This document shows positions 26,925-47,979 of a DNA stretch of 64,000 nucleotides, piece after piece. The notes under the pieces were generated by a model. It ran no database searches. It saw only the letters and a list, made by a program, of their open reading frames with translations, and was not told the DNA's origin. Numbering within the stretch: the first letter of the stretch is position 1; each line of letters starts with the position of its first letter. Source of the DNA: Escallonia rubra (lineage: Eukaryota; Streptophyta; Magnoliopsida; Escalloniales; Escalloniaceae); contig JAVXUO010000053.1 in assembly GCA_033065855.1 (NCBI GenBank), forward strand, positions 186,001 to 250,000, given 5' to 3'. A program made the position numbers and the translations under genes.

Positions 26925-27320
<396 letters not shown>

Positions 27321-27343
27321 TATATATATATATATATATATGT

Positions 27344-27475
27344 GGGAGCTGATCCGTTGCTAGCGCTAGCACCGTCCGCTACATAATGTAGCGGACGGTA
27401 AATTATCGTCCGCTACATTATGTAGCGGACGGCAAAACAGCGCTAGCAACGTGCTAGCGCTAGCAATGGATCACG

Positions 27476-27479
<4 letters not shown>
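27344..27479. mobile_element. Microsatellite-bound palindromic element, family 1, copy A
   Basis: A 136-bp element lies between TA runs. Ends are GGGAGCTGATCCGTTGC and GCAATGGATCACGACCC, imperfect inverted repeats, followed inward by GCTAGCGCTAGC. The centre holds two copies (from 27374 and 27408) of a near-perfect palindrome with core CCGCTACATAATGTAGCGG. It has no coding capacity. The whole element could fold into a long hairpin. Confidence 0.85.

Positions 27480-27480
<1 letters not shown>

Positions 27481-27540
<60 letters not shown>
27481..27540. repeat. (TA)n microsatellite between elements A and B
   Basis: A 60-bp uninterrupted TA run separates two family 1 elements. Confidence 0.95.
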
Positions 27541-27542
<2 letters not shown>

Positions 27543-27886
27543 CGTTACTCGCGCAGGCAACCAACTTAAGGTAAGTTGTTAGCGCCATTTACCCGACCAT
27601 CCATTGCGGATGGATGGGCCAAATTTATTTTTTATTAAGTAAACTTCATGTAGCGGACGGTGAAAATTACGACACTACCCCCCCCCCCCCCCCCCAATTT
27701 GCCTGCGAATCTCACCGACTCATTTAATACCTTTAAGTCATTTTGGTGAAAATCACCGTCCGCTACATAATGTAGCCCTTTTCTTTTTTTAAAGTTAGAT
27801 CTAATCTATCCATTCACTACGGATGGATGCCCAGATGGCGTTGACAACTTATTTAAGTTGCCTGCAGGGACAAGAGATCACGACTC
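27541..27886. mobile_element. Microsatellite-bound palindromic element, family 1, copy B
   Basis: A larger and more diverged copy lies between a TA run and a run starting ATACACAC. Its inverted ends share GCAGGCAAC, AACTTAA and AAGTTGT blocks, followed inward by CATCCATT..GGATGGATG and TGTAGCGGACGGTG / CACCGTCCGCTACA. The right end GATCACGACTC corresponds to GATCACGACCC of copies A and C. A run of 16 or so C (about 27681) lies in the middle. It has no coding capacity. Confidence 0.7.
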
Positions 27887-27899
27887 AATACACACACAC

Positions 27900-28463
27900 A
27901 CTCACACACACAAATACTAGTAAAAATCACGTGCTTTGCACGAAAGTAGTGATTCGAAATAAAAAGGTCATAAACCTTAGTGAATAAAACAATTAAACTT
28001 AATTAGTACGACTACTTTAATTAAATCATAATAAGTATATTAATTACGAACTGCTAATCAAAAACTCGAAGTATGGAAAGTTTATTGAAGAAAATATGAT
28101 CTTACTTTTTCAAATGCAAGTTGCTATTGTCAATTACCACCAATATTCGTCACTTTTTATCATACTTAAAAAAAAAAAATTTGTCACATCAAGTACTATT
28201 AAGGAAGACCCTGATTGTTCTATGTTATAGCTTCTTACCTAAGGTACAGTGACATTGTATTTAGTTTTAAACATCTTCTATAAATGCTTTCAATAACAAA
28301 AGTAAAGAAAGTGTTTTATAGACAAATTGACACACATAAAATATAATATCAAAAGGTATATTTCAAAATTTTCCAATTTCTTGTAATATATTTCTATAAC
28401 ACTTATATAAGTCTAGAAACTGAAATCGAGGTGAAGTTTGAATTATAACTAAGTGATAATAAC
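27900..28463. other. No gene seen
   Basis: AT-rich sequence without recognisable coding. Confidence 0.5.
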
Positions 28464-29225
28464 CTAGGTTGCACAGACATGAACACTGTGTCTCGATACT
28501 GACACTGACACCGACACCGACCGAGATACCGGACATCGTAATTTCCAAAAAATCAAATTTTGGACACCGCTAAATTTTTTAATATATTTTCATTATTTAT
28601 ATATTTTTTATAAACATGTGTGTAATTAAAATAAACAATAAGTGGAGTAGCTTAATTTCGTTTAAAATAGATGAACAAGAAAGAAGGAAAAAAGACATGG
28701 GATTAAAGGCATGAAGGAGAGGTCTTAGACTGCGAGATAGGTCTGCAAAATGAGGTTGGAGAGGTTGATTTATCTTTCTCTAGACCGGTAAGCTTGAACG
28801 CTTACGGTAACAAAAAAGGAAGAAAAGAGATAAGAGAAAAAGAAGAAGGGTACCTTTGGCTGGAACCCGACGTGATCCTAAGGGGATGAAGCTCAGTTGT
28901 CCGTCTTCTTCGTCTTCTTTTCTCTTGGTCAGGCAGACAGAAGCGGCATAGAAGACAACTTAGAAGACAAAAGGTTTGGGTCGATTTGATCCGGGTTTGG
29001 CTTAAAAGTTCATTTCCAAAAAAAGCCCCAGATTAGACAATTATTACACTGACCCCGAAATAAGTTTGAAATAGTGTATTTTGGCGCATACGTGTAGACA
29101 CTTCTTCAAGATGTGTCCGACATAATGTCCAATAATTAAACAAAGTAAAAATAAAATAGGACACCGCTGAGAGGTGTCGGACACGTGTCCGGAGGTGTTG
29201 GTAAGTGTCGAACACCATACCTCAA
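28464..29225. repeat. Probable transposon with GTGTCGG/CCGACAC-rich ends
   Basis: The left part is rich in GACACTGACACCGACACCG, and the right part has GGTGTCGGACACGTGTCC and GTGTCGAACACC. Such facing GTGTC-rich ends are common in dispersed plant repeats. The termini and target duplication could not be fixed and there is no coding. Boundaries are approximate. Confidence 0.35.
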
Positions 29226-29860
29226 CCCATATGAGGTGTTGGGGCTTCCTAGATAATAACAAAAGTTTAAAATTTATAAACCAAAGTGTATCGTAGAAAG
29301 TAAAATGTCTGATGAAAAGGAGTTGCAACTAATAAATGTATAACAAATTTTATAGATTGAAAGGAGTTAGAGGCTTAAATTTTGCATCTTTGAAACTAAG
29401 AATAAATGAACTCAAGAGATCGATCTAACAGGCACTTATAAAAACTCATTTGCTTATGTAACAATTCTAGTAGCTATAGCTTTCAAGAATCTTCTTACAT
29501 TTTATATTATCCACTTTAAAAGTTTTCGCCATTTTTCCTATAACCATAGCAACTGAAGTAAAAAATATCATAACTTAGAACTCCATTTAAAACTTTTGGT
29601 ATCATTAATTATCCATCTTGTTTCTTTTGGTAGAGTGATGGCCGTTTATTGTAGCTACGGATGGTTGGGGGTCAAGATAGCCCCCCGTTGTATTTTATTT
29701 TGGAAATTATCTAATCTTATATCATTTTTATCTCTTATTTAAAGATTGAACTACAGAGCAAGTCCCTTTTCAATTTTCTTTAACTTAAGTTCCACATTTC
29801 AACTACAATTTGTCTAAAGCTACGCTTAATCTTAGTATTACCTTCTTTTATTCATGTAAA
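29226..29860. other. No gene seen
   Basis: AT-rich sequence without coding features. Confidence 0.45.
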
Positions 29861-29869
29861 TACTCTATA

Positions 29870-31093
29870 TGGATAATATCATTTATATCCCTCAGTTTAT
29901 GGGTAAATTACAGCCGAGGACACAAGTTTGTGTTTATATCAGTTATATCCGTTGACCACACGGAATACGGATGGCGTTAAATTTTTGTGTAAAATGACAT
30001 AATTGCCCTCTAGAACAAACCACTCATCTCTCTTCCCATTCTCTTTTTCTATCCCTTCTCAGACCCATCGAACCACCATTGTCATTCACCTTCTTCCACA
30101 TCCAATAACCATAACCACTACCAAGAAATTATATACTGATTCATTACTGCCATTCGCCACCACGGCACTAGACTTGCCATCCTTATTAATCCACTTAAAC
30201 TGTTTCTTTGGACCAAAATAATTAATTAAACCCCAAGTCTTCAAGAAAACAAATACCCTCCGAACCGAACCCACGTTTGCAATTATGTTCTTCCTGGCCT
30301 CTGTAAAGCTTATCCTTTCACCTAGGATTCTCCCTGAAACTTCTAATTATCAAGTTCCTGTAGTATTTGAAAACCTGGGGTTCTTAGACGTTGATATCCA
30401 GTCAAAAAACTCCGGCAAAAATTGGGACTCGCAGTCGTCCACTTCCTTCCACCAAAACCACCCTAAGAAGCATTGGCACCATACCCAGATCTCGGTATGG
30501 TGGATAAGGATGGAGATTTGGGTATGATGGTGGCAGATAGGAATGAAGATCTGGGAAATGTGCCGTGGTGGTGGTGGATCGAATATGTGATGAGTTTGGT
30601 GACTGGTGATTCCTCGTTGACTGGCTAGTTTATGACTGAAACGACGATGGTGGTGCGTATGGCTGGACTGATGGTGGTGGTGTGGGTGGGTATGGTGGTG
30701 GTTTTGGTTTTCGTGTTGGAGGTGACGCCGATGGTGGGACGACCGTGGAGGTCGTAGGTGGTGGCATTTTGTTTTGGAATTAGACATTAGAATTAGATAG
30801 AGATGGGAAGACATAATCAAGATTATGAGAGCGAGAAGAGAAGAAATGGAAAGAGAACAGAGAAAATGGGAAGGAAGAGGATATGTATAAAATATGTATT
30901 AGGGGTAATATTGTCATTTTCAAAATATGATATTACCACATTAGCAAAAACCGTTAGTTAGGGTCACAGAACCCTAACGGTGGTCATATATGATACAAAA
31001 TTTTAACATTTTGGATAAGAGTGCAAAATTTTAAAACTTGTGTCTTTGACTGTAATTTACCCCTAAACTCAGGGATATAAATGATATTATCCC
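29870..31093. mobile_element. Mutator-like element (MULE)
   Basis: The left end TGGATAATATCATTTATATC and the complement of the right end GGGATAATATCATTTATATC continue in parallel through CCCT, GGGTAAATTACAG and GACACAAGTTT for about 70 bp. The flanks tactctata (29861-29869) and tagactata (31094-31102) agree at 7 of 9 bases, a worn 9-bp duplication. No transposase is present. The interior has a T/C-rich half (30000-30300) and a GGTGG-rich half (30540-30770). Long frames there (30350-30820 minus) are low-complexity His/Pro/Ser-rich and not convincing genes. The interior may be captured host sequence. Confidence 0.7.
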
Positions 31094-31102
31094 TAGACTA
31101 TA

Positions 31103-32262
31103 GTCTATTCTAAAGCTCTCTTGATAGTTTACTCTATAGCTTTCTTTTGTTTTTACCTAGCATGACCTTTTTAATCTTAGTAGTACATAATAGATATAAT
31201 TTTGCATATATTTGCCACAAGACTTTTATTTTTGGCACAAATTTATGATAATACTACACCTACTCATCTAAAAAACCAATATATGTATGTTTGTGTGCAT
31301 CTTGAAATGTATACTACGAAATGAATTATGCAAATAAGACATGAGAAAATGGCTATGAATGAAGTAATCATAGTAATGTTCACAAACCTAACTTTTTCAC
31401 CCTATATACGTTCTCGCTAATCTAAATAAAAAATCCACAAAAGTTTATCAAGAATCGTTTCTTCCCCAGATCATTCACTGAACATTAATACCCGTATCGT
31501 CAAAATAAAACCAAAATGAAAAAAACTTACCAATGACCTAAGATTTACTGTTAAGAAAATCACAACAACCAATTGTTTTATCAAATTAAACAACAAGCAA
31601 CACATAAGTTCATCATAAAAGTTAAAAAAAAATAAGGCCTAGTCAAACATGTAGATATTCTGATTTGGTCATATGTCGGTAAGTTCAAGTTTGCAGCTAT
31701 ATGCAAAAGTTAATACAGTGCAATAGCCACTCCACCTTACAAAAAGATATAACAAAGAAACACGATAATATATGGACTTAGGACCGGTTCTCTAAAGACT
31801 AGAGGAGATTAAGGTGTTCTTTTTATCAATTTTGATGTTTGCAAGTTTTAATGTTAGGTTGTGATAAGCTTTCGTGAAAAAGAAGCATAAATTAAGATCA
31901 AATTTAAACGGTGGGGCTCGATCTGCCCTCATTTTGGTAATATTCATACTATTTTATCAACAACAATAAAATGTTAAAATTAAGCAAAAACTTATGTAAT
32001 TTAGCCTCACCGTTATAAACAAAACACCCTTTAATGTTTGTAAACCTTATAAATTTAGAAAGGGTATTCTAAAGGGAAAAAAAAAGTTTTAACTATTTAA
32101 CCTTTTGGGATCATTTTTGTACAGTATGACTAGATCAACAACTGTTTTGGTTAAATTTTTACTCTTTTGCCACGAAAAGATGCATTAGTAAACTTTTATT
32201 TTCTTTTCTAAAAAAATGCTTAAATTTAGTCAAAAATGTTGTAGTTTAGCCTCACCCTTATA
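31103..32262. other. No gene seen
   Basis: AT-rich sequence. Blocks such as CTTTTTATCAATTTT and TTTTTGGTTAAA recur loosely here and at 33420-33720. No coding was recognised. Confidence 0.45.
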
Positions 32263-32271
32263 AAAGTAAAA

Positions 32272-33403
32272 GGGGTAAATGCTCTTTGACCCTCTGTACT
32301 TTAGGGCGGTTACAATATGTGACACTCTAGTTTAAAAGGTTGAACTAAGCATCCCTGCACTCATCAAAACTAGGCAAAATGAACAATCATAATTGAGCTT
32401 GTTAAAATGTCACAATTACCCTTCTTTTAAACACAGCATTGGGTGAAGGGAGAATGGGGAGAAGAGCAAAGAGCAGTAAGGGCAGCGGCGCGGGGGCCGG
32501 GGGGAGATAAAAGGAATTGAAGGAACATGGGGATGTCGTCGACGGGGGGCTACCGACGTGAGATGCCGAAGGAAAGGTGGCGGTGCAAGGGGCGGCAGAG
32601 TGGGGCCGTTGCGGCTGCCGGGGCGAGGGAGAGAAGATGAAGGAAGAAAGGGTGGTTGGCGTCGTCGACGGGGGGAGGGGGGCTACCGACGTGAGATGCC
32701 GAAGGAAAGGTGGCGGTGCAAGGGGCGGCAGCGCAAGGCTGTTGCGATAGCGGGATCGGGAAGAGGAAGGAAGAGAGGGGGGTCAGAGTTACCGACGGAG
32801 GGAAAGGGGGCTACCGGCATAAAGTGGGGCACCGGCGTGATCTTTAAGGAGCTTAGGGGTTCTATAGGGGAAAAAGGGTTTGGGATGGGCATCGGTCAGG
32901 TCAGGTGGCAATAGACCAGGTCGGGTAGGTTTGGGTCGTTCTGTGGCTCTATGAGGAAAAGGAAGGGCGGTGGTTCGGGACGGGCACAGATCGTGGAGTA
33001 TGGGTTCCGGTTATGCCCACTAGATTTTTTAAATTGTATATATTTCAAAATTTCGAATTTTTTTTTTTTTTTTTTGGCCTTCAAAAGGAAGGGGGAGATG
33101 AAAAATATTTTTGGAAGATGTTGCTAAGGCCCCAAAAAAAAAGAGGAAGAGAGGAAAAAGGGGAGATGAAAAATATTTTGGCAAGTGTTTAGTATTTTAT
33201 TAGGTCAAAAGAGTACATTTGTCCTAAAAACACAGTTTTTGGGCACCAAATATTTTCTACACAAAAACTGTGTTAACGTGGATGGAAACCGTCTATTTTG
33301 CTCAGTTTTGATGAGTGCAGGGAGGTTTAGTTTAACTTTTTAAACTAGAGGGTGTCATATTGCAGCCGTCCTAAAGTATGGGAGGTCAAAGGGCATTTAC
33401 TCC
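32272..33403. mobile_element. Mutator-like element (MULE) with GC-rich interior
   Basis: Long inverted repeats (about 110 bp) start GGGGTAAATGCTCTTTGACC and, as the complement of the right end, GGAGTAAATGCCCTTTGACC. They continue through TACTTTAGG, CTCTAGTTTAAAA and CTGCACTCATCAAAACT. A perfect 9-bp target duplication aaagtaaaa flanks the element (32263-32271 and 33404-33412). The interior at 32440-32960 is GC-rich and contains a direct duplication of about 65 bp with GTGAGATGCCGAAGGAAAGG (near 32555 and 32690). The 118-residue frame at 32558 is Gly/Arg-rich and low-complexity. No transposase is present. Related interior sequence lies in the MULE at 54193. Confidence 0.9.
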
Positions 33404-33412
33404 AAAGTAAAA

Positions 33413-34800
33413 AGCTCCCTTACTATTTGTAAAGCTTAGTGCAGTTTTATGGAAAAAATATTTAGTCATTTAACCCATTGTGATCTTTTTATAAGGTGGG
33501 GCTAGATCCACTCTTTTTGGTTAAAGTTATACCTTTTTGTGACTAAAAGATACATTAGTGATCTTTTAAGTTCTTAAGCGTTAAAATGTTTAAATTTAAC
33601 CAAAAAGATTATAACTCATCTTTTTAAAATTCATAAAACCCTTAATTTTTAGAAATTTTTTAATTTTAAAAAAGACAATTGAAGAAAAGAATTGTTAAAC
33701 CATTTTAACCCCTTGCGTAACAAACTTTAAGAGTTTTCAACAAAAAAAAAAAAAAGAAGAAGAAAAAAGAATCATTCATCATTTGAGTTATCAATTGGAT
33801 TTTACCTGACCCTATCATCCCCAACAGTGGAATATACAAAAACAATAATCATATCAAGAACATATACCATGGTAATATTAGGTATTCCAAGTTATAGTGA
33901 ACCATATAGAGCCAATAAACATATAAAAAATATGTCATCATCTCATAAGGGTGTTCCAATAACTCTAATACAAATTTACGATTATTTATTTGCCATGACC
34001 CTAAAGTATAATTAGGATCACAATAGTATGATCTAACAATTCTTAGAAGTCATGTGATTATATATGCATTTCAAAAATGTTAAAAAAAATTCTAGTTTTA
34101 CGATAGCTGTCTTAAATCAGTATGTCTCTATTCAAAACCTAGAATTAATTTCTACGGTAATTTTAATATGCTAATATGTCTGTATTAAAACCAATATACA
34201 TGCACATTAATTCAAGGCGTTGTAACAACATATTAATGACAAAATTTTAATATGCTATCAACATAATTTTAATATGCTAATAGGAAAATTAATGACAAAA
34301 TATTAAATTCAGTTTAAAGTAAATATTGCGTTTTGTCTAAAAGGTTATAGAAAACTCTGTTATGTGTAAGTTGTTTTCATTGATCGAACTTGATATAGAA
34401 GATGTAGTAGCTCTAGGATAGTCTAGTTTTAATGTGAATGGAGATAGGTTTTGACAGAGTCTTTAGTCATTAGAGAGCATGCAGGAATTCAAAGGGCATT
34501 TTATAGGATTTCATAGGGATTTGTTTCTTTTTTTTATATAGTAAATATCAAAACAATCCTTAAATTTGATAAGAATATATGTCTTAATTGGGGTAGTTTA
34601 AGGAAAGAGGCTTGATACCCTATGAGAAGACAAAAACACCCTCATTTTTCAATAACACTCTAATCCAAAAAGGATATTTTATGAAGAAAAAAAAAGTTTT
34701 AGGATAAAAACACCCCTAGTCACCCCTAAACTTTTATGAAGATTTTCAATTAAAAAAGGACATTTAAAGGGGAAAAATGATTAGCCATTTAACCATGCCC
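33413..34800. other. No gene seen
   Basis: AT-rich sequence without coding features. Confidence 0.5.
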
Positions 34801-34845
34801 GTACTTTTATATATGTATAGATATAGATATAGATGTATCCATATG

Positions 34846-34879
34846 TATGTGTGTGTGTGTGTATGCGTGTGCGCGCGCT

Positions 34880-34912
<33 letters not shown>
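34846..34912. repeat. (GT)n/(TA)n compound microsatellite
   Basis: GT, GC and TA dinucleotide runs lead directly into the palindromic element at 34913. Confidence 0.9.
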
Positions 34913-35067
34913 GGGAGCTGATCCGTTGCTAGCGCTGGCAGGCTTGCCAGCGCTGTTTGCCGTCCGCTACATAATGTAGCGGACGTCAACTATCGTCCGC
35001 TACATTATGTAGCGGACGGCAAAACAGCGCTGGCAAGCCTGCCAGCGCTGGCAATGGATCACGACCC
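34913..35067. mobile_element. Microsatellite-bound palindromic element, family 1, copy C
   Basis: A 155-bp element lies between TA runs. Ends are GGGAGCTGATCCGTTGC and GCAATGGATCACGACCC, identical to copy A. Subterminal GCGCTGGCAGGCTTGCCAGC and its mirror are inserted where copy A has GCTAGCGCTAGC. The centre holds two copies of the CCGCTACATAATGTAGCGG palindrome (from 34962 and 34995). It has no coding capacity. Confidence 0.85.
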
Positions 35068-35240
35068 TATATATATATATATACACACTCACATTTATGT
35101 ATATGTATATATGCATATACATAGATGTATATGTACGTATGTATAAATATATGTATACGTATATGCATATGCATATGTACGTATATATACATATATGTAT
35201 ATAATGTATACATGTGTGTGTGTGTGTGTGTATACATATT
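35068..35240. repeat. TA/TG/ATGTAT-rich compound microsatellite
   Basis: Interleaved TA, TATG and GTATAC words, ending in a (GT)n run near 35215-35230. Confidence 0.75.
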
Positions 35241-35817
35241 TGTATGTATAAATCTAATATGTATTAGATTGGATTACCATCAATGTTCACCTGTGTGCTT
35301 TTCGATGGGAATAAAGTTCGAAAGCTAGAACAGATAAATTTTGGTTGCAAGAAGCTAGAACTCCTTGTATAACATAATCATGGTAGATAAATATGGCTAG
35401 TGGCATAGTATTAGTGACGCTAAAAGAATTGATGTTAAGATTAATTTGTTGCTTAAGGTGTTTATGAAATTGCAACTGAATATAATTAGCGATGATTATT
35501 GTGAAAATATATTGTCGGGAGATCGATATACTTGTACATAGTGGTGGTAAAGAGAAAAAAAAATGATGATACATGTTTATGATATTCACCCTAACCTAGT
35601 AACCTAGATTTTCTTCCGATGATCTGAATTTGCTTCCCAATCTTACGTTGTACAATTGCACTTTCAAAAGAGTAAAAAGTTTTTTAAGTTTAATGGCTTG
35701 ACATGAAGACGGGATTGTTTTACCATCTGATTTGACACATTAATCTAAGCTTCACAAAAAGAGATGGAAAATATTCAAGTTTTCTTCTAATTACTCGCAA
35801 AACAGTTTTGTTTAGCA

Positions 35818-35826
35818 TATATATAT
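35818..35826 (+). promoter_or_regulatory. Candidate TATA element upstream of the NLR gene
   Basis: A TATATATAT stretch lies about 80 bp before the NLR start codon. An acceptor-like cttcttttgcaag at about 35856-35868 lies between it and the ATG. A 5'-UTR intron, with the real promoter further upstream, is therefore an alternative. Confidence 0.3.
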
Positions 35827-35903
35827 GAGAACTGAAGTCCATTTTTAAACTTGTGTTTCTTCTTTTGCAAGGCCGAAGTCTGCTCCAAAAGAAAGAAATC
35901 ATA

Positions 35904-38851
35904 ATGAATATCCCGGTGATCGGATGCTGCATTGACAAGATTTCTGATAGAGTGGGAGATTTTCTGATTAACGGAGCCTTGCGCGAAGCTGGTTATTTGT
36001 TCAACTTCAAGAAAAATGTTGCACATCTTGAAGATAACCTTAACAACCTTAAAGCTGCTCTAAGTGAAGTTCAAAAAGTAGAGGAAATAGACCGCAACAA
36101 TGCAAGAAATGTCGATCCAGATGTTTCCAAGTGGTTGGACGGTGCAGTAAAGATGAAGAAAGACTTGGAGGGTTTTTTGGAAGACAAGATTCAAAACAAA
36201 GCTCATGGTGTTTGCTGCAAAGTGCCATTTCCCAATTGTTGCTACCGATTCAAACTCGGTAGGAAGGCATCAAAGAAAAGTGTTGATGTTGCTGAACTCA
36301 TCAAAAAAGGGGAACCTTTCAAGAAGCGTGATGATGAAGTTGCACATCTTGCACCTCATGAAGATAGTAGGTTGTTATCTGTAGAAAAGTGTGTGAAATT
36401 CGACTCAAGGTCGAAGATTTTTGATGATATATTGGTTGCTTTAAGGGACAGTAATGTCACCAGAGTTGGAATACATGGCATGCCAGGGGTGGGAAAGACC
36501 ACAATGATGGAAGAGATCAGGAGAGCTTTGGTTTTGAACAAAGAATTCGAAGAGGTTGCAGTTGCTGTTGTCTCTGCGACTTTGGACGTCAAAAGCATTC
36601 AGAGGAAGCTTGCAAGTGGTTTGGGTTTATCTGACCTAGATAAAGAAGCTGATGAATCTACGAGAGCTGGTCTACTAAGGCGCAGACTGAAGAATGGGAA
36701 AAAGATCCTGATTATCTTAGACGATGTTTGGTGTAAGCTTCCCTTAGCAGACATAGGAATTGATTTCGGAGACAGCAAGAACTGCAAAATTTTCATGACA
36801 TCTCGAGAAAGAAGGGTATGTGAAGCAAATAAGTGTATGTCTTTCTTGATTGACATCTTAAGTAAAGAGGAAGCTTGGAGTCTTTTCAGGCAGCATGCTG
36901 GAAATTGTGTTGACTATCCAGATATTAGTCCAGTATCCGAGGTCGTTTTTAACGAATGTGGACGCTTGCCGCTCATAATTCGAGCAGTTGGAGAAGCACT
37001 CAAGGACGGGGATCTGTTTGAATGGAAAGATGCACAGCGACAATTCGAGAGCTGCACACCTCATATGATTGCCAATATAGACGACCAAGCTTACAAGACC
37101 TTGGAATTGAGTTTTAATAAGTTGAAACCCGAAGAGGCAAAGTCCTGCCTTTTGCTCTGTTCATTGTTCCCTGAAGATGCTGCGATTTCTATTGATGAAG
37201 TGTCACTACTTGCAAAGGCGATGGGCTTCCTTCCTAACACGGATTCAATAGAAGATGCAAGAAACAGAGCACTTTCATTGGCAAAAACTCTCAAAACTTC
37301 TTGTTTGTTGCAAGAATGTGAAGATGGAGACTCAGTTAAACTGCACGATGTTATCAGAGATGTCAGCGTACATGTTGCTTCCGAAGACGTCAAGTACAGA
37401 TTTATGGTGAAATCCGTTGTCTCTGCATGGCCAGAGATTCATGAAGCTCGTAGAGCGATATCACTGAGAATTGAGACTACTCTTGAGCTTCCCAGAAAAT
37501 TGGAATGTCCGCAACTTCAGACCCTAATGTTAAACAGTAACAAGTATGCATGCACACGAGTTCCTGACACATTTTTCGACGGCCTTGAGAACCTTGCAGT
37601 TTTGAGTTTGAGGAATATATATATCTCCTCGCTTCTCATGCTACCTAACCTTTTGATGTTGTACGTGTGTATAGAAGATGATTGCTGGTTTGATATATCC
37701 ATGCTCAAGGAGTTGAAGAAACTTGAGATTCTTATCCTTGCTTGCTCCTATATCCCTGAGTTGCCGCTGGACTTGAGAGAGTTGAAGAATCTTCGGTTGT
37801 TGGATCTGAGGAGGTGTTGCCAACTCAGGTTCATTGAGAAAGGTGTCTTATCAAGTCTAAACCACTTAGAAGAACTATACCTGCCAAGCTGCTTTGATGG
37901 TTGGAATGCTGCCTTACTCGATGAACTAAATTCATTGACTCGCTTAACAGCATTAGGGGCGCGTGCAATCGATTTCGACAATTTACCGGGTTACCAGTTC
38001 TGTAAGAAGCTGATCAGGTATGATATATCTGTGAGATCCGTTGGCTCTACTTTGACAGGACCAACAGAATTCTCCAAGCCCTTCTCATCAACCAGAACAA
38101 TCAACGTCGGTGACATAAACTTAATCGACCGAAGAGACACGGTAAAAGTTCTGATCGAGGGGGCTGAAAAGTTGTTCCTGACTGTTAATAAAACCGTTAA
38201 AAATCTCTTCTACGAGAGCAGCAGAGATGGCTTTCCACATTTGAAGTTCTTGGAAGTCCGTGATTGTGAAGGAATGGAATATCTAGTAAAATGGACTCCT
38301 TTATTTCAAAAGAGGTCCTTCTCTAAATTGGAACTATTGGTTGTTTCCGGATGTAAGATTAGATATCTCTTTAACGTGGCAATGGTGAAAGAACTCAAGT
38401 GTCTCAAACAGTTAGAGATAATCAAGTGCGATTTCATAGACGCGGTAGTAGTAAATGAAAGCCGAGGAGAGGAAGAAGAGAGCATGGATCCTGTTCATTT
38501 TCAAACCCTGAATTATATTAAGCTGGAGCTTCTTCCAAAACTCACAAGCTTCTACTGCGAAGCAACAAAGAGATCGGGGATGGTTCCTGCCCATGCTCAA
38601 ATTCTCTTTCCCGGCGGCAAGGTATACTTCGACCAACATTTTGAATAAACAAGTGCGATGGGTGTCTTTTGCTCTTTATTTCTCGGGACCTTGGAAATTT
38701 ATCTGACTACTAATCCACTTCACCTGTGCTAATGAGCTGAAATCGCTTCCTTAAATTTCTCAAGATACTACACACAAGAAATACGAGGAACTTACCCATG
38801 CACTTAAGGACAAAGATTAGAGCCGACACCAAGATGGCTGTTTATTTTGAA

Positions 38852-38890
<39 letters not shown>

Positions 38891-41800
38891 ATTTCAATGT
38901 AGTGGTACCCGAGTGTGCACACTTTTTCACTTTTCGTCTTTTGTCCTTAAAAAGCCGCCGTTGTGTCTTGTGTTAGTAAATGAAATTAGCCTCCCATTAT
39001 CTTGCGTATTTTATTTTATTTTCCAATGCAACATACGAAGAAACTTTCATAGCATAGAGAAGTTTCAAATAATATTTGTGCCTATGCTCCATAACAAACT
39101 TTACCATACTTCAGGTTGCATTCCCTGCATTAGAGAGGATTGAAATTGCTGGTTTACCACAAATTGAAGCTCTATGGGACAGTCAATGTCCGACAGCGGA
39201 ATCTTTCTCCCAACTACGGGAATTGTCTGTACGTTCTTGTGAAAGATTGAAAATTGTTACAATGCTTCCAAGGTTGACAAATTTGCAAGTGATTACGGTT
39301 TATCATTGTGGATCAATAACTGAATTTGCATGTCCTGCCGCTCTGGAACTCATTCCAACAAAAATAACAACCCTATTGCCTGAGTTGAAGAAAATGTACC
39401 TTCTAAATTTGCCGAAATTGAAGCAAACAGTGTTCAACTCAAAGGAACTTGAGGATGAAATTGTTGTGTCCCCAAAGCTAACTTTACTGACCATTGAGGG
39501 CTGCCACAGTTTGAAAAATGTGTTCTCACCTTCTGTGGCCAAAAATCTTAAGAATCTTGAAGAGCTGATGGTGTGTCAATGCAATAAGATGGAAGAGATT
39601 GTGGCGACGATAAGAAAAGGTCGAGAAGAAAGTGATGACAAGATTTCTTTCTGTCAGTTGAAGAGAATAGTGCTTGATGATGTGAAAAACCTGAAGAAGA
39701 TCTGGGGTAGTGAATATGAAGAACATCATGATGAAGAAATCCAAGAGGTGGACCCAGCTATTACCCAACCTCAACCCTTTCACAGAAACGAGGTACACTA
39801 TAAATTTCCTGCTCAATGTTCATTATCGGTCAATAGCTTTCCAACACCTGCAATGCATGTACATAAGGAAAAAAATATGAAAAAAATTTAGCCAAGAGTA
39901 AGAAATCTCAATGCGTAAGAATGTTGTGAATGATAAAGAGATTAATGTATACACCTCGTGTGCAATTAAGAAAAAGTTGAATATCTAAGTAACCACGCGC
40001 ATCTCGTGTGCAATTAAGAAAAAGATGACTATCAAAGTAAAATATGTTTTTCAAAGGCTTAGGAGTTGTTTGATAAAACTGAAATTTAAGTATTGCAAGC
40101 TTAAGCACTGAATTTGTAAAAGTAAAAAGTTTAAGCAGCTGATTTTTTACCACTTAAAAACAAGTTAACTTGTTTTATAAACTAAAAGCAGATGTCTGAA
40201 AATTGTTCTCTTTTTCAAATTTATCCATTCAAAATTATACATGTATATATTATATAATTTTTTTAATACGAAAACTGTGTGGGTTGTATTGGTGGTGGGG
40301 GCGGTCGAAAAGGTGTTAATAATGGTGGTGATAGTAGTGCGTGAAGATGTGGGGTTGAAAATTGTGGTGGTGGCGATAAGTGGCGGTCATTGAGGGTGCT
40401 ATACTGTGGTAATATAGAGATGGTTTTGGGCTTTTGGCAGACTTGCAAGTGGTGGTGGTGGTGATGGTTTGGTGGAGATGGCAATGTCCTCCGACGGTGC
40501 TGCTGATGGCCATGGTGGTGTGGTGGTGGTAGTGTGGCGGCGGCTTGCCGGTGTGGTAACTGTGGTAGTCGTGGAGAAAGGAACATGGTGGTCGTCGTGG
40601 TAGCTCTAGAACGGTGGAGGTAGTGTTGCCAGCAAATTAATTGTGGTGACAATTATTTTTTCGACCCAAAAATTTGTTTAATAAATTGACCATCTATCAA
40701 ACTTTAAATTAAGTGATAAGCATTAGGTAAGCTGACTTAAAATTTTAGTCCATAATAATTGACACGGATTAGTTTTTTAGTGCTATAATGTTAAGCGTTT
40801 TCAAACGCATTTAATTAAAAATCAATGAAGAAATTAAGTTTAATGTGCTTAATTGTGTTGTATCTCCTGCTCTCTTTACCCCGTCCATTTCTTTCCTCTC
40901 CGTATTCTCCCTCCATTAACAATTTGCAACGACTTGGAAGGTTTGTTTGCCAAGCTTGGAAGAATTACGCCTGCACCGTGTAGGGATTTCCCCGCTGGAG
41001 ATCAGTCATTCAGCTGAATCCTTTTGCAAATTAAGATTTGTATATCTAGCGGCTTGTGACGCACTTTTTCCACCAAACTTTTGGGTACAAATGCAAAATC
41101 TGCAAGAGTTCACTCTTCGTGGTTGTGATGTGGCAAGAGAGTTATTTGATCTTCAGGGACTAAATGTCCGCGAGCTACATGTCCCGCTCCTCTCAAGAAT
41201 GAGTACGTTTTCTATAAGTAGACTACCTGAGTTGCAGCTACTGTGGAACAGGGATCCCTGTGGAATCCTAGATTTTCAAAGTTTAACAGTCATAAAAATT
41301 GAGCATTGTGGTCTCCTGAAAATGCTCTTCTCATGTTCCGTGGCCAGAGCTCTCGAACAACTACGAGTATTAATAGTAGGATCATGTCCTATGATAGAAA
41401 CTATCGTCTACGATGACGAGGGAAAGGAAGGAACCGGTCATAGCATTGAATTTCCTCGGTTGAAGTTCATAAAACTTGAGGAACTGCCGAGGCTAACAAG
41501 TTTCTGCAATGCAAAAATTGCTTTAACAATGTACTCGTTAACCGCATCAAGATTGGATAGATGTCCCCGGATTTTGGGTTTCTCTTCTGGACAATTACAC
41601 ATGCCAAAGATGAAGATATCTTCTGGACAATTGGCCACGCAATTGAGGATGACATATTTAGGTCGAGCTCCATCGCCATGGATTACAGTCACAGACCTCA
41701 ATAAACAGCTACAGGTAATCTCAAAGGTTCTAATATTCGATTAAAAATATGCAATGCATCCTAATATATGATTATGCAAAGTTGTTCTTGGTGAGGAAGT

Positions 41801-42603
41801 CATCTTGGAAGATACTGCCTCCAACATGTGGAAAATTGAATGTGCCTGCAGATTAATATGATATGATGTGCAAGGCACATCATTTATTAGTGACCTAAAC
41901 ACTGTAATTAATGATATGCAACGGTTTAATGCAAAGCCATTGGAACGTCAAACTATGTGGTAGCAACAAAGAGTGTAGTTTTTTTGTGACAGCCATATGT
42001 TAGTTAACTTTTTCGACATGAAAGATTGCTTTTCCTTTTTGAGTGTCCTGTTATAGGTATTCGCTTGCTTAATCATCTAAACTTCTTTAGAGTTCCGGTA
42101 TCATTATCATGATGATGATGCCAATGCTGTTGTAGTTTTCTCTTTTACAACGTAGTAGTTTGTCGACCAAATAACTTCTTCAAAAAAAGGGTCTAGTTTT
42201 TTAATAAAGGGGAGTATTAGTCTGTTGGACTGCCGAGCCTAAAAAATTGGGGTGTCTTTCCTCTTCCTTTGGTTTTTCACAATTCCATTATGTGCCTCCT
42301 CTGTACAAATAGTTCAACGTGACGAAGTCATGTGCTATTTATGTCTCCTGTGAAACAATTTATGCTTCTAACAGTTTCTAGGCTTGCAACTTCATTGGTT
42401 TTTTTTTTTTTTTTCAGGAATTAGTAACGGACAAAGATAGTTCTCGCAACTGGGTAAAAACGGACGTCGTCGACAATTTTCTTGAGGAGCTGGCATGGAA
42501 TGATCGATATGAAATTCAGAAATACAAAATCTTTAATGAATTGTACCCCACTACATCAATCTTCCTAATCCGACAGTCTTCGATGATTGGAAGTAGTAAG
42601 TAG
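35904..42603 (+). CDS. CC-NBS-LRR (NLR) disease resistance protein, At4g27190-like
   Basis: Four exons fit: 35904-38621, 39115-39792, 40941-41714 and 42418-42603. All join in phase 0 with GT-AG sites (AAG|gtatac, ttcag|GTT, GAG|gtacac, ACAG|gtaatc, tttcag|GAA) and give about 1451 residues. Residues 1-150 form a coiled-coil-type N-terminus. NB-ARC motifs: P-loop GMPGVGKTT (about 192), kinase-2 ILIILDDVW (268), RNBS-B FMTSRERRVC (297), GRLPL (353), RNBS-D LLLCSLFPED (416) and LHD in the MHD position (480). LRRs fill about 530-1390, with the FPALERIEI and NLKNLEELMVCQCNKMEEIV blocks typical of this subgroup. The start MNIPVIGCC fits the family; an upstream in-frame ATG (35853) adds residues not seen in relatives. 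Expected role: cytosolic immune receptor switching on ATP binding. The weakest splice site is the acceptor at 40940. The last exon adds a 61-residue tail unlike an LRR. Confidence 0.9.
38853..38890. repeat. (CT)n(CA)n microsatellite in NLR intron 1
   Basis: CT repeats followed by CA repeats within the first intron of the NLR gene. Confidence 0.9.
40060..40870. mobile_element. Probable MITE-like insertion in NLR intron 2
   Basis: Most of intron 2 (39793-40940) looks like inserted repeat. Left words such as GTTGTTTGATAAAACTGAAA and CTTAAGCACTGAATTT face right words such as ATCAAACTTTAAATTAAG and TAAGCTGACTTAAAATTTTAG, which suggests loose inverted ends. The core (40280-40660) is GGTGG-rich. 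The 129-residue minus-strand frame there is low-complexity. Boundaries are uncertain and no target duplication was found. Confidence 0.4.
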
Positions 42604-45108
42604 TCAGCGACCATGCAATTTTGGTCATTGGATCTGGATATTAATCCCCTCGAATACCGCCGGCTCATTTTCTCTCATATGTCCTCTTTAAGTTCCGTGT
42701 TTGAGCACCTTATTATCTTTTTGTCTTTTCTTTTTCTCTCTACATGTAGTTCTGGCTCAAGTGATCTCTTCCCAACATTAATGCTCCAAGTATGAATTAA
42801 TACTCTTGTTCCATTTTGAGTGTGTTATTACTTTGCGTGCTCATACAAGCACAACTTTGAAGAAATGTACGTACATACTCGATTTTCCAAGGCGATATCA
42901 GAAAATTTATTACTTAATTACGTTCAAGGCATAGACTTAACACCCTTATGGGTGGGACACGCCAAAATAGAAAGCAAGACTCATAATGAAGATTCCAAGT
43001 GAGGGTGCGTCAATATTGATACCAGGCAAAAAGTTGAAATGTTGCAACCCGAGATCTTTGTTTGGGAATTTCACACTCTTCAAGATATATATGATAAACG
43101 ATCGCCTTTATTATTTGAGCGTACATTTGAAAATGCTTATGGAACCTAGAGCGACAAAAGGTCAAATTCAAATGCAAAAAACTAGAGCTTGTTTTTGCAC
43201 GCTCTTCAAGATATATGATCAGCGAAGATATTTGAGCTTCACCCCTGCATCCTTAAGTTCTAATTAGTGCTTTTAGACACGCTTGTGAAATACATAGCGC
43301 TAAACTAATAAAGAATGTCCACCCTGTGGAACATACTGAGGAATGGCTCCAAGCCCCTTCATATGTGGAACATACCGAGGAATGGCTCCAAGCCCCTTCA
43401 TATGAACTTGCGCATCTGTAACTGTGCATGTCACCTGTAGAGGAACTGATGCAGACATCGGTCTTTCGTCAAATTGTTCTCCATCACATAATGCAGGAAA
43501 GGCCCTACACCCTGCTATGAACACTGAAAACTTCATTATTTTTAACTTGACGCAAATGCTCCTAAACCTTTCTGGGTTCCTCCTAAAGGGCTTCAACAGT
43601 TCAACTTAATCGAACTCTTATTATTTCCTAATCCTTCCCTTGATTTCTCAACAGATTAAACACCATCAGTCCATTATCTTGATTTCAAAAAGAAATTTAT
43701 CTCGCCTTCATAAAACTAGTTCATGCACTAGCTCTTTTGGCACTAGCCTTACTCGGTGGCGGAGCAAAAAAAAAAAGAAAAGATTTAAGGTGGGCACCAG
43801 ATATAAAATTGAGAAATTGGCCCAAAAATTGCTAAACTCTCAATCTAAAGTTAAAAATCCCAACAAGCCTCGATCTGAAACCTATATACACCCACCACCC
43901 ATGAGCAGCAAATGCAATCTGAAATTACGAATCCAAAATCTCAATCTGAAATTAAGAATCTCACTAGCAGTCCCAATTCCCAACTGCAAATTGTAAATTT
44001 TAAAACTCAATTTTCAAATTCAAAATTAAAAGAAAAAAAAAAGGTTCAAGTTCAAGGAATTAGAAAGTTTAAGAATAAACAGTGGAAGTCTAGATCTTAC
44101 TTACTTTCAAGTGGAGGATTAGGGTTTGCGACTTGTTGTGGAGGCGATGGAGCAATTCCAGTAATCAGTGGAAGGATGGTGGCTTTATATTTGGGAGAAA
44201 ATGCTAGAATTCTTCATGATTTTCGGGTTAAAGAGATTGTGGTGGAGACAATTAGGTGAGATACTGAGATTTGGGAAAGAAAAGATGAGGTCGGCATCAC
44301 TGATCACTGCATCAGAGCAATACACCGCAACGAATTGACAATGCCGAAGGAATCGACAAATCGAGCAATACACCATGACTTCAACAATCCTTCCATGATT
44401 AGATCTATCATTGGTGGACCGACAAGTGGAGGTTGTTCGACGTGGCGTTGAGGGCATGAGGCCAGTGAGAGTACCAAGGAGACGATGTGCTTTGTTCGTT
44501 ATGTGGCTTACAAGCTTTGAAAACATGGCTTTGAAAACAGTAGAGGATAAAGAAAAATTTATTGTGTTGACTTTATGTTTGGACTTCGTTTTTTTTTTTT
44601 TTTTTTGGTTTTGGTTTACTTGTGTAAGTTAATTAGTACTTTAAATGACTAAAAATATATATTTTTTAACTATCTTCAGAATTTTTAAGTAACTTTAAAA
44701 TGACTAGAAATATATCTCCTATAAGCATTTTTAAAAGTTTTTACGTGAGCATTTTCTTCATTGGAAATCAAATATACCATATGAAATGAAAAAATCATAG
44801 AGAAGGAGGTGGGCACCAGCCCATTCTTCCCCCCCCCCTACTACTGAACAATTTTCAGCTACATAACCACCTATTTATGGTTTCTAGTCATGTGACTCAT
44901 GTCAAAATAATAGTTGTAACCCTCTTTTGTTTTGCCTCAAAAAGCTCACTCTAGCTTTTAATTAGCAGTAATATTATTCAAACATTCGATTTTGGAGTTT
45001 TTATTTTTTCTTTTTTTTGAGATCCACCTTTCAAGTTTTGTTGGAAGCATTTTGTCTCTTCTTCCCTTTAATCTTCATCCCAACACCTAGTACCTAAGAA
45101 CACCAAAC
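42604..45108. other. Intergenic, no host gene recognised
   Basis: Short open frames occur but none resembles a known protein. Loose repeats ACTCTTCAAGATATAT (43076 and about 43200) and a 39-bp tandem duplication (43326) are present. GGTGGGCACCAG occurs at about 43789 and 44810 on the same strand, which may mark an unrecognised element. The end of the NLR transcript should lie near the start of this stretch. Confidence 0.4.
43326..43401. repeat. Tandem duplication, unit about 39 bp
   Basis: GTGGAACATACTGAGGAATG and the following GCTCCAAGCCCCTTCATAT are repeated once with a single visible difference. The minus-strand frame across it (43300-43596) contains VPLQVTCTVTDAQVHMKGLG, which I cannot place. 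Confidence 0.8.
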
Positions 45109-45422
45109 CATCAACATAGAGATGTCAAACGGGCCGGGTCAGCCCGATCCGGCCCTAAAATGGCTCGGGCTGGCCCTACCCTACAGGTGAATAATGAAAG
45201 CCCTGGACCATAGGCCCTAAGGCCAGGCCTGATTTTCTGGCCAAAAAATCCAACCTGGGCCCACGCGATTTTTGAATTTCAAATTCCCCCCCCCAACGGC
45301 TATATTCTCCCTTTTTTGCAAAATTCCACTTTTACCCCCCCCCCCCCCCCACCTCCAAAACAGCTATATAACGGCTAGAAATTCCACTTTAAATAACCTA
45401 TCTTATCGTTGTAGTAGAAATC

Positions 45423-46196
45423 CTTAAAATGGCTACAATATTAACGAAATGGAGATATGTAGGACCCTTTCAGGAAATAGTAAAACATATGGACATTAAG
45501 TTTAATAAATATTGGGCGGAATCGCGTACTATTTTTGTTGTAGCCACTTGTTTAGATCCTGGGTTAAAGTTGCATGGTACGAAAGTTTCGATACTAAAGA
45601 CATCAAGACTAATGTGCTACATGGATGAAGACACAACCAAACATACAACGAAAGTGAGCACGACATTTGAGGATCTGTACAACCTATAATAAAATTTCGC
45701 TGACGTGCGCGGGTGAGCTTCATTGTCGAGCGGTGAAATATATTATGCGTCATATATTAAGGGCCTTGAACATCTAGTAGCAAGACAACTACGAGCGGAA
45801 GGTACTTCAAGTTTGGCAGGTTCGTCTACTTTTTCCTCTTTTAATGAGATTGGTTTGTATGTAAATACTAATCATTATTTTGCTTTATCAATGGAAGAAC
45901 AGATGAATTTTGATTTGTTAACTTTTTGGAAACAAAATGAAAAAATTTATAAAACTTTATTCATAATTGTCCGAGATGTACTAGCGGTGCAAGTATCTAC
46001 GGTTGCTTCAGAGTCGGCATTTTCAGCGAGCGGGAGGGTGTTGATGATAGGAGAAGTCGTCTTAACCCTGAGTCACTCGAGTTATGTGTATGTTGGAAGG
46101 ATTATCTTAATGCAAAATACTACGAGCAAGATAAACCGATTGATAATAGGAAAATCAGCGATTTGGACATCGAAATTGTTCCGGATGATTTGGTAA
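45423..46196 (+). pseudogene. hAT transposase fragment (DUF4413-like and dimerisation region)
   Basis: The first frame (45429-45689) reads MDIKFNKYWAESRTIFVVAT then CLDPGLKL, matching the hAT RNase-H-fold region. The second (about 45725-46196) reads FDLLTFWKQNEKIYKTLFII then VSTVASESAFSASGRV, the hATC dimerisation domain. Just after SGRV the reading shifts by one base: the other frame continues DDRRSRLNPESLELCVCWKD, the normal end of hATC. The N-terminal zinc finger and most of the catalytic domain are absent. It is a dead remnant. Confidence 0.8.
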
Positions 46197-46333
46197 TTTC
46201 TTTTTCTTTTCCTTTTCTCAAGTTTTTAGTATAAATTATTTTCAAACAAATTAAGTGTGTCTAAAGTAAACAATGCACTTGAAAAAATATATTTTTTTCC
46301 TCACTTTTTTTTTTAAAATGAATCATATATATA

Positions 46334-46544
46334 CATCTACCGGTGGAGAGCTTGTGGACGGCTCAGATTGAATATTTTGTACACTAACCGTTATACTTAG
46401 TAGCGGTTAGGGGCCCACTCGGGCGGAAGGTATCATGAATAGCAAAGAGATCCAGTAAAATTGGAGGAGCAAGCCTAATCGCTACAAAGAGTAGCTGTTA
46501 GACAGAGTGGTGGAGATCTCCACCGGTAAATGTGGATCTGGTCC
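46334..46544 (+). mobile_element. Microsatellite-bound element, family 2, copy 2
   Basis: About 211 bp lie between TA runs within the hAT element. Ends are CTACCGGTGGAGA and TCTCCACCGGTAAATG, imperfect inverted repeats. It shares the GTGGACGGCTCAGATTGAAT block and the following AGTAGCGGTTAGGGGCC with copy 1 at 27124-27320. A family 1 element follows immediately, separated by a 28-bp TA run. It has no coding capacity. Confidence 0.75.
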
Positions 46545-46572
46545 ATATATATATATATATATATATATATAT

Positions 46573-47925
46573 GGAGCTGATCCCTTGACAGCGCTGGCAA
46601 AATTGATTAAGTTGCTAGCGCGATCTGACCGTCCATCCCGAAAGATGGACGGCCCAGATCTTTTTTTGCGTTTTTTTAAGTACGTCCGCTACATTATGTA
46701 GCGGACAATTTTTTGACTTTTTTGACAAAAATACCCTTTGTGCCCATCCGCTACATTATGTAGCGGACAAAGCCTGTACTTTTTTTCTAACCCTTTCTCT
46801 GATTAATTTTCTGACCATTTCTCTCTCTTTTGTCTAATTAATTGTCCGCTACATAATGTAGCGGATAATTTCTGACCCTTTCTCTCTCTTCTCTCCTCTC
46901 TCCTGACATGTTTAATTGTTCTCTCTCTCTCTCATTAATGTCTGACTCTTTCTCTCTCATCTCCCCTCCCTTCTTCTTCTTCTTCTTCTCCTCTCTCTCT
47001 CCCCTGTCCATCCTCCTTGCAGTAATGACAACAGCCCACATCACGGCCGAGCTCTACTCCGGCGTCGCCGCAGCAGAGGCGTTCGCCTCTTCCCCGAGCT
47101 CCGACCACCACAACCAAGAAACCCACGAAGACGCACCCCCCCTCTCTCTCTCTCTCTCTCTCATTTCTGAACAACGAGCTGGAGGAAGGAGAAACTAGAA
47201 ATGAAAAGTTGGAAAATATTGCCCAGATCATTGGTCTGAGAAGTATTTGGAATTGGTGTTGGATTCTTTTCTTTCTGTTGGTCAATTTTCAGTTTTGGAC
47301 AAGGGAGTCAACTTTGTGGTGCTGCAACCATATTCTTTCTTGAAGCTTGAACGCAAGCAGCCATGGTGGTGGGGACTTTCCCTTGTTTGAGAGGAAAGAA
47401 TATTGGTTCAGGTGAAATGGGTGAGCCAAGAAAATTGCCTCACCATCAAATCCCCACAATTCGTCCATCAAAACAATGATCTACAAACAAGAGAGAGAGA
47501 GAGAGAGTCAGAAAGTTAGTGAGAGAAAGGAGAGAAAGAAAGAAAAAAAATGATGAGAGAGAGGAGAGAGAAAGGAAACCGTCAGAACATTAAATGAGGA
47601 AAAGAAAGAGAAAGAGAAAAAATACGTCCGCTACATAATGTAGCGGATGAAAATTGAGGGTATTATTGTCAGAAAATTGTCCGCTACATAATGTAGCGGA
47701 CGGATTTAAAAAAAAGTCAGAACAGTAGTCTCGATAGTCCGCTACATAATGTAGCGGATGGGCACAAAGGGTATTTTTGTCAAAAAATTGTCCGCTACAT
47801 AATGTAGCGGACGGACTTAAAAATACGAAAAAAAAAGATCTGGGCCGCCCATCTTTCGGGATGGACGGCCAGATCGCGCTAGCAACTTAATCAATTTTGC
47901 CAGCGCTGTCAATGGATCAGCTCCC
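46573..47925. mobile_element. Microsatellite-bound palindromic element, family 1, long copy D
   Basis: A 1353-bp element lies between TA runs. Ends GGAGCTGATCCCTTGACAGC and its near-mirror GTCAATGGATCAGCTCC start inverted arms of about 190-200 bp, which share GCTAGCGCGATCTG, CGTCCATCCCGAAAGATGGAC and a GACAAAAATACCCTTTGTGC block. Seven copies of the CCGCTACAT[A/T]ATGTAGCGG palindrome occur (from 46684, 46746, 46844, 47636, 47679, 47737 and 47790), three in the left part and four in the right. CT-rich and GA-rich stretches mirror each other further inside (46860-47000 and 47490-47620). A unique gene-like segment fills the middle. No transposase was recognised. Confidence 0.85.
47022..47480. 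other. Gene-like segment inside element D, possibly captured
   Basis: Plus-strand 47023-47145 reads MTTAHITAELYSGVAAAEAF then ASSPSSDHHNQETHEDAP. It is GC-rich and codon-like, unlike its AT-rich surroundings. Minus-strand 47289-47471 reads MMDELWGFDGEAIFLAHPFH then SPPPWLLAFKLQERIWLQHH. Neither is recognised. The composition suggests a piece of host gene carried by the element, as Pack-type transposons do, but the source cannot be named. Confidence 0.35.
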
Positions 47926-47937
47926 ATATATATATGT

Positions 47938-47940
<3 letters not shown>

Positions 47941-47979
<39 letters not shown>
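47941..47979. repeat. (TA)n microsatellite right of element D
   Basis: TA run that separates element D from the remaining right part of the hAT element. Confidence 0.9.

Follow-up and report, generated by a model that had tools for sequence, protein, structure and literature searches.

A probable TA-targeting Mutator-like family of foldback elements with a repeated palindrome in Escallonia rubra

Introduction

The targeting of TA microsatellites has already been described for several plant transposon families (PMC4486113, PMC5907723, PMC8449440), among them MuTAnT of Medicago, Micron of rice, SaTar of guayule and Ac-mMITE of pineapple, so that the kind of element treated here is a known one. 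How Mutator-like elements (MULEs) with this preference enter microsatellites is an unsettled issue in the field, the two possibilities being staggered-cut transposition and recombination. Here, we analyze a stretch of 64,000 nucleotides from Escallonia rubra (assembly GCA_033065855.1, contig JAVXUO010000053.1, positions 186,001 to 250,000), hereafter the window, which is plant nuclear DNA and embeds four elements, A, B, C and D, associated with TA runs and with a repeated palindrome. We suggest that A, C and D, with B as a more distant relative, are very probably non-autonomous members, of the miniature inverted-repeat transposable element (MITE) or foldback type, of a TA-targeting MULE family, which, by analogy, appears to work like the four families named above and which most likely entered the TA microsatellites by ordinary cut-and-paste.

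Results

The palindrome-bearing elements of the window

Element A (27344..27479, plus strand) is a foldback MITE of 136 bp with two palindromes (27374-27396 and 27408-27430), and C (34913..35067, plus strand), a near-perfect foldback MITE of 155 bp that is 82% identical to A over its own length, also carries two of them (34962-34984 and 34995-35017); the hairpin is near-complete in both when compared with shuffled sequences (z -14.8 for A and z -22.2 for C). Element D (46572..47925, plus strand, 1354 bp), whose start was placed one base late (46573) in the preliminary description, harbors seven palindromes, and its long inverted arms align with each other over 338-408 columns with 78% identity. 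These three elements share GC-rich subterminal arms and inverted ends of the form GGG(AGC/TCG)TGATCCnTTG, the left end of D beginning with TGG; the left end is GGGAGCTGATCC in A and C and TGGAGCTGATCC in D, and the right one GGATCACGACCC in A and C and GGATCAGCTCCC in D. The 23-nt palindrome, GTCCGCTACAT(A/T)ATGTAGCGGAC, occurs in no further place of the 64-kb window, even allowing five mismatches. Element B (27541..27886, plus strand) is a diverged foldback cousin, with a single palindrome (27758-27780) broken in its right arm by four mismatches, a right end in which 13 of 16 bases agree (by eye) with the shared end, and an interior that is in part also common. Hence, the earlier proposal that four elements share their ends and one to seven palindrome copies holds for A, C and D, and extends to B only for its right end and for a partial copy.

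The about 570 bp of D that lie outside the inverted arms (46959..47529) may represent captured host sequence; no Pfam match was found in the three overlying open reading frames (ORFs) of at least 100 amino acids (aa), and an open frame running over this interior contains MTTAHITAELYSGV. An Rfam search of the window at gathering thresholds gave no matches.

Copies of A in the genome

The 566-Mb genome was searched with A as the query, and the best 40 of 1414 candidates were scored, 39 of which were taken with about 600 bases per side, the fortieth being the copy in the window. Considering as TA-rich a flank with at least 60% TA/AT dinucleotides in 20 bases, both sides are TA-rich in 31 of these 40 copies, one side in four, and neither in five (four distinct sites), some copies residing in repeats of other types or in DNA that is simply AT-rich. 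TA microsatellites are thus the main and strongly preferred insertion site. The preliminary description had spoken of a mobile family with a repeated palindrome that always sits in TA microsatellites: the family and its preference are borne out, whereas the survey of the flanks of the best 40 copies of A requires the word "always" to be abandoned. The mean divergence of these copies from their own consensus is 2.0%, a value that leans toward young copies, since only the best-scoring ones are included. A second shared end, allowing up to two mismatches, is present within about 600 bases at 11 of the 39 loci; L013 and L034, read through by eye, contain three elements each, all microsatellite-linked and none interrupted.

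A sample picked by position, consisting of twenty 10-kb stretches (200 kb), was also analyzed; it is not fully random, because the stretches lie on contigs named by the A search. TA runs of at least six units account for 0.19% of it. The loose end pattern (up to three mismatches) gave 14 rows, seven of which lie directly at TA or GT/TA runs, with the AGCG-like arm continuing from six of these seven; the other seven, with neither TA run nor arm, look like chance. Allowing four mismatches, the palindrome is restricted to L052, L058 and L068, i.e., to the same three stretches as the TA-adjacent ends. In the window itself, both ends of randomly placed segments fell within three bases of a TA run of at least four units in 3 of 63,864 placements (136-base segments), 2 of 63,845 (155-base segments) and 1 of 62,647 (1353-base segments), figures by which the elements terminate at TA runs much more frequently than randomly placed segments do, but which are indicative only, because the ends were picked after the data had been seen.

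Flank phase and target-site duplication

The phase of the flanks was determined for 42 copies, namely the best 40 copies of A together with C and D, leaving out B and the E elements described below. A copy was defined as pure-TA if it has eight pure TA bases on each side, which is the case for 29 of the 42, the remaining 13 having impure flanks. A duplication of odd length predicts that the left flank closes with the same base with which the right flank opens (equal phase), whereas a duplication of 2 bp (TA) or 10 bp predicts the opposite and random joining predicts equal phase in half of the copies. All the 29 pure-TA copies, C and D included, exhibit equal phase. They correspond to 28 distinct sites (the flanks of L027 and L028 are the same, and the left flanks of L020 and L021 nearly so), and A of the window is not among them because its left flank ends in GT. 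Restricting the count to copies with intact terminal GGG and CCC, equal phase was found in 16 out of 16; from this strict count only, L040, uninformative since its left end is overwritten by TA, was dropped. Seven two-ended elements beyond or overlapping this set were considered as well: six have six pure TA bases per side and all six show equal phase, although two of them are again C and D, which leaves four out of four as new evidence. Both the a/a and the t/t phases are present, which implies that the element has no TA built invariably into it. Five copies of A (L019, L023, L024, L041 and L049) have a terminal CCA in place of CCC and keep the flank phase; they may constitute a subfamily with a changed terminal base.

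The existence of copies outside the microsatellites renders the duplication visible. Indeed, an exact direct repeat of 9 bp borders 6 of the 13 copies with impure flanks (five distinct sites, L027 and L028 sharing their flanks), versus a mean of 0.92 expected by chance when the right flanks are re-dealt among the 13 copies. One mismatch in nine is found in five more of them (L015, L016, L018, L035 and A of the window), which are located in near-pure TA or in TA plus other repeats.

Full-size relatives and their transposase

A larger relative with the same ends is an element of 8364 bp (C1691:15243-23606), which carries the MITE end GGGAGCTGATCC in the outermost 12 bases of both termini, whose inverted ends align over 258 columns with 92% identity, and whose flanks are TA on both sides in equal phase. 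Over their terminal 12 bases, A, C and D agree with this element, save one base at the left end of D and the AGC/TCG at the right of A and C, and the arms of D are 78-79% identical to its ends over 139-198 columns. It embeds a MULE transposase match (16626-17918, plus strand) in an open frame of 782 aa with no stop and a C48 peptidase match (19703-20032, minus strand) pointing toward the transposase; moreover, a copy of A adjoins it across TA-rich repeats. Similarly, on contig C2105 a TA run parts a family end from further elements and a copy of A, and a transposase match is located some 1.5 kb inward of the family end.

Another full-size relative (C1514:204192-212678; 8.5 kb), whose ends have diverged, surfaced in one of the sampled 10-kb stretches (L052). 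Its inverted ends align over 263 columns with 87% identity, and the right arm of D is 68% identical to its left end over 187 columns. Four domains were recognized in it, i.e., MULE (PF10551, 1.2e-28), FAR1 (PF03101, 3.7e-15), C48 (PF02902, 1.5e-7) and plant mobile domain (PF10536, 2e-22): the FAR1 DNA-binding part and the MULE part lie in one frame on one strand, and the plant mobile domain and C48 ORFs on the opposite one. The class of the transposase rests on the Pfam match, and a search of solved structures with the 441-aa MULE part gave no matches. When the genome was searched with this same part, the best 95 of 3692 candidates (the place of the query included) all had E values below 1e-248; 88 of these 95 have no internal stop, and their open frames often span 700-790 aa. 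A parallel search with the C48 part gave 2048 candidates; among the best 150, at least 11 (C1514 included) lie (by eye) within 3 kb of a listed transposase match and point toward it, and at least three more lie within the same distance on the same strand.

The absence of a transposase, reported for the window, is in agreement with the lack of a MULE domain in the 60 scanned of its 61 ORFs of at least 100 aa (ORF 58893-59219 and shorter ORFs were left out), but it does not apply to the genome as a whole.

Variants and possible role of the palindrome

Both full-size elements harbor variant palindromes. Those at the ends of the C1691 element have other centers (e.g., GTCCGCTACACTATGTAGCGGAC), and in C1514 four are located near each end and 14 in the middle, several of them spaced 77-78 bp; the latter form an array (C1514:208264-209369, corresponding to 8264-9369 of L052) between the convergent transposase and C48 genes. 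The presence of the palindrome both in the ends of the short elements and between the genes of a full-size one fits a protein-binding site. It might tentatively be proposed that the FAR1-type transposase of the family itself recognizes CCGCTACAT-W-ATGTAGCGG, which recurs along the inverted ends and, as variants, between the two genes, as a two-sided site, and that this enzyme would cut TA runs with a 9-bp stagger and need no recombination; the flank phase would then durably record that the elements entered microsatellites by cut-and-paste and, if true, this would separate transposition from recombination for such plant elements. A regulatory or RNA-hairpin device in place of a protein-binding site is an equally doubtful candidate, and one that concerns the palindrome only. 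The 14 variants between the convergent genes of C1514, a position in which they might act as a terminator or in silencing, speak for it; palindromes, however, also occur in the inverted ends, both of the full-size elements and of the short ones, and the latter have no recognized genes.

An exact-string search of the open-licence literature did not find the palindrome; a string of 11 or 12 bases occurred once in each of five papers, under titles that are not on plant transposons. Exact matches in one viral contig (a hairpin that, by eye, seems to separate two reading frames and lacks TA flanks) and at two bacterial loci were taken as chance, about two being expected, by estimate, in 257 billion bases. 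Of the two traits highlighted in the preliminary description, the TA targeting is thus one already described in several plant families and the exact palindrome is the one that this search of the literature did not find.

Arrays and neighboring sequences

Two elements of another family accompany A and D. E1 (27124..27320, plus strand) is joined to A through (TA)10 (27321..27340) and bordered on its other side by (TA)16 (27092-27123), and E2 (46335..46545, minus strand), of the same family as E1 (79% identity over 132 bp, inverted orientation), is joined to D through (TA)13 (46546..46571). The end of E2 facing D, TGGACCAGATCC, matches the TGGAGCTGATCC of D at 10 of 12 bases and GGGAGCTGATCC at 9 of 12. 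A and B are separated by (TA)30 (27480..27539), and an interrupted AT run (47926..47978) lies to the right of D, so that the window harbors two arrays, (TA)-E1-(TA)-A-(TA)-B-(AC) and E2-(TA)-D-(TA), in which no element interrupts another. Element C, with (TA)11 on its left (34890..34911) and (TA)8 on its right (35068..35083), sits in a compound GT/TA/CA microsatellite.

A fragment of the chloroplast gene rbcL (26940-27091), preceded by a GT run, abuts (TA)16 and E1 in this nuclear DNA; the 43 aa encoded by 26961-27089 correspond to residues 405-447 of the Rubisco large subunit (E 2e-23), and the fragment is an organelle insertion joined to the transposon array. A hAT dimerization domain fragment (45717-46196) is located to the left of E2. 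The window also contains a disease-resistance type gene (NB-ARC/LRR) in three open frames (35829-41744) and a Ty3/gypsy-type retrotransposon (56631-61655), whose two adjacent open frames encode gag, reverse transcriptase, integrase and a chromodomain.

Discussion

The class of these elements, left open in the preliminary description, can now be assigned to the Mutator superfamily, because of the 9-bp target duplications and of the full-size relatives with a MULE transposase. Indeed, Mutator elements are characterized by duplications of 8-11 bp, mostly 9, and here 6 of 13 impure-flank copies have exactly 9 bp and 29 of 29 pure-TA ones an odd phase; by long terminal inverted repeats, which span 258-263 columns in the full-size elements and 338-408 in D; and by a MULE transposase in the full-size members, which was found in C1691, with MITE ends, and in C1514, with diverged ones. 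Based on these data, we suggest the following scenario. The transposase of the full-size copies might act in trans on the short ones, cutting the element out and inserting it where a TA run has been cut with a 9-bp stagger; the TA duplicated in this way would then lengthen or shorten by slippage, whose 2-bp steps keep the flank phase; later insertions would hit TA runs beside older elements, giving rise to non-nested arrays. The repeated palindrome could, perhaps, serve in this process as a two-sided binding site for the transposase or for another protein of the element.

Other routes into the microsatellites have been considered. Homologous recombination of circular intermediates carrying microsatellite filler, put forward speculatively for SaTar (PMC5907723), would account for arrays that are non-nested and microsatellite-joined, and for the unlike repeats flanking one copy of A (L043). 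Nevertheless, recombination with arbitrary filler predicts a random phase, and neither the equal phase of 29 out of 29 copies nor the exact 9-bp duplications outside pure TA is what it would leave behind; we therefore regard it as very unlikely indeed. It is also very unlikely that the TA runs belong to the element, or grow from its ends, without any targeting. In Medicago, TA runs at sites that hold an element are reported to exceed in length those at empty ones (PMC4486113), and expansion may add to targeting without replacing it; nonetheless, the occurrence of both phases, on which the TA-as-element-part explanation was dropped, the copies in other repeats or plain AT-rich DNA, and the compound microsatellite around C are at odds with this idea.

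Elements of the Tc1/mariner type, duplicating the 2-bp TA, might be invoked in view of the TA flanks and of the lack of a transposase inside the short elements. Such a duplication predicts unequal phase (the left flank ending in A and the right one starting with T), and this was observed in 0 of the 29 copies, so that this candidate was dropped; as the exact duplications outside pure TA are of 9 bp and a full-size relative has a MULE transposase, its probability appears close to nil. Helitrons have no inverted ends, no target duplication and a 3' CTRR. They were dropped in view of the inverted ends, of the 9-bp duplications and of a right end that reads CACGACCC or CAGCTCCC.

Some observations weigh against cut-and-paste entry and family membership as proposed here. 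The terminal base is changed in 13 of the 29 phase cases, for which nominal ends were assumed; L017 lacks TA flanks and shows no duplication; L043, whose left and right flanks differ in being of GT and TA type, fits no duplication either; and the element at L013:775-986 has TA-type but impure flanks with no exact repeat of 7-11 bp. The left end of B does not resemble the ends of A, C and D, which makes its tie to the family loose, as is the link of the E family. As for the full-size elements, C1691 was read at both ends only, its middle resting on protein matches, and the terminal 12 bases of C1514 match the MITE end (by eye) at only 9 and 8 of 12, an in-frame stop splitting its FAR1 and MULE parts.

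The phase test requires nothing but sequence data, favors transposition here, and might be applied to other published families. In addition, the many open-frame transposase matches and the low-divergence MITEs, which lie side by side in two cases (C1691 and C2105), make this genome a candidate system for direct tests of both the microsatellite targeting and the repeated palindrome.

Concerning the relationships with described elements, the family differs from the ULP1-bearing MULEs in having its C48 region within a TA-targeting family and, in C1514, a plant mobile domain ORF upstream of it on the same strand. ULP1-bearing MULEs are said to include a case in melon and the Arabidopsis "Kaonashi". 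Like those of grapevine (PMC2528002), the full-size elements carry a C48/ULP1 region, which, in some families of such MULEs, is opposite to the transposase. As to the plant mobile domain, transposon-encoded proteins of this type have been suggested to counter silencing (PMC8616336).

Among the TA-targeting families, Ac-mMITE of pineapple (PMC8449440) can be likened by its description only, according to which these are MITEs associated with (TA)n and derived from Mutator, which cluster because insertions land next to one another; a minority of the copies have 9/10-bp duplications, and no autonomous partner was found. Micron/rSaTar2 of rice, by its description in PMC5907723 only, is likewise a MITE residing in (TA)n, and it has its ends in common with an autonomous MULE. 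SaTar elements (guayule, rice, sorghum and citrus; PMC5907723) are presented there as non-autonomous MULEs forming mixed, non-nested, microsatellite-joined arrays, such as those found here in the window (E1-A-B and E2-D) and at L013 and L034, with autonomous relatives also residing in microsatellites. They differ in their duplications, which are reported to be of 10 bp in guayule versus 9 bp here, and the same paper favors recombination, whereas the flank phase described here favors ordinary transposition.

The family itself was not recognized in the open-licence literature, surveyed mainly at the level of titles and abstracts, and the closest in behavior is MuTAnT/AutoMuTAnT of Medicago truncatula. 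According to the account of it in PMC4486113, it is, like the elements analyzed here, Mutator-like, foldback and (TA)n-targeting; it likewise varies in its number of terminal Gs, exhibits 9-nt duplications in the small set of copies that lie outside perfect TA, and comprises short copies and a full-size element, the transposase of the latter being Jittery-like. The repeated CCGCTACAT palindrome does not figure in the description of MuTAnT given in the parts of PMC4486113 considered here. By sequence, the family is not MuTAnT, since the ends of the latter follow the mask GGGGTTTGCTAGAACA (PMC4486113) and those analyzed here GGG(AGC/TCG)TGATCCnTTG, and the autonomous partners are also differently built: AutoMuTAnT is reported to have 4.9 kb and one ORF (PMC4486113), whereas the full-size relatives described in this work have 8.4-8.5 kb and two convergent genes.

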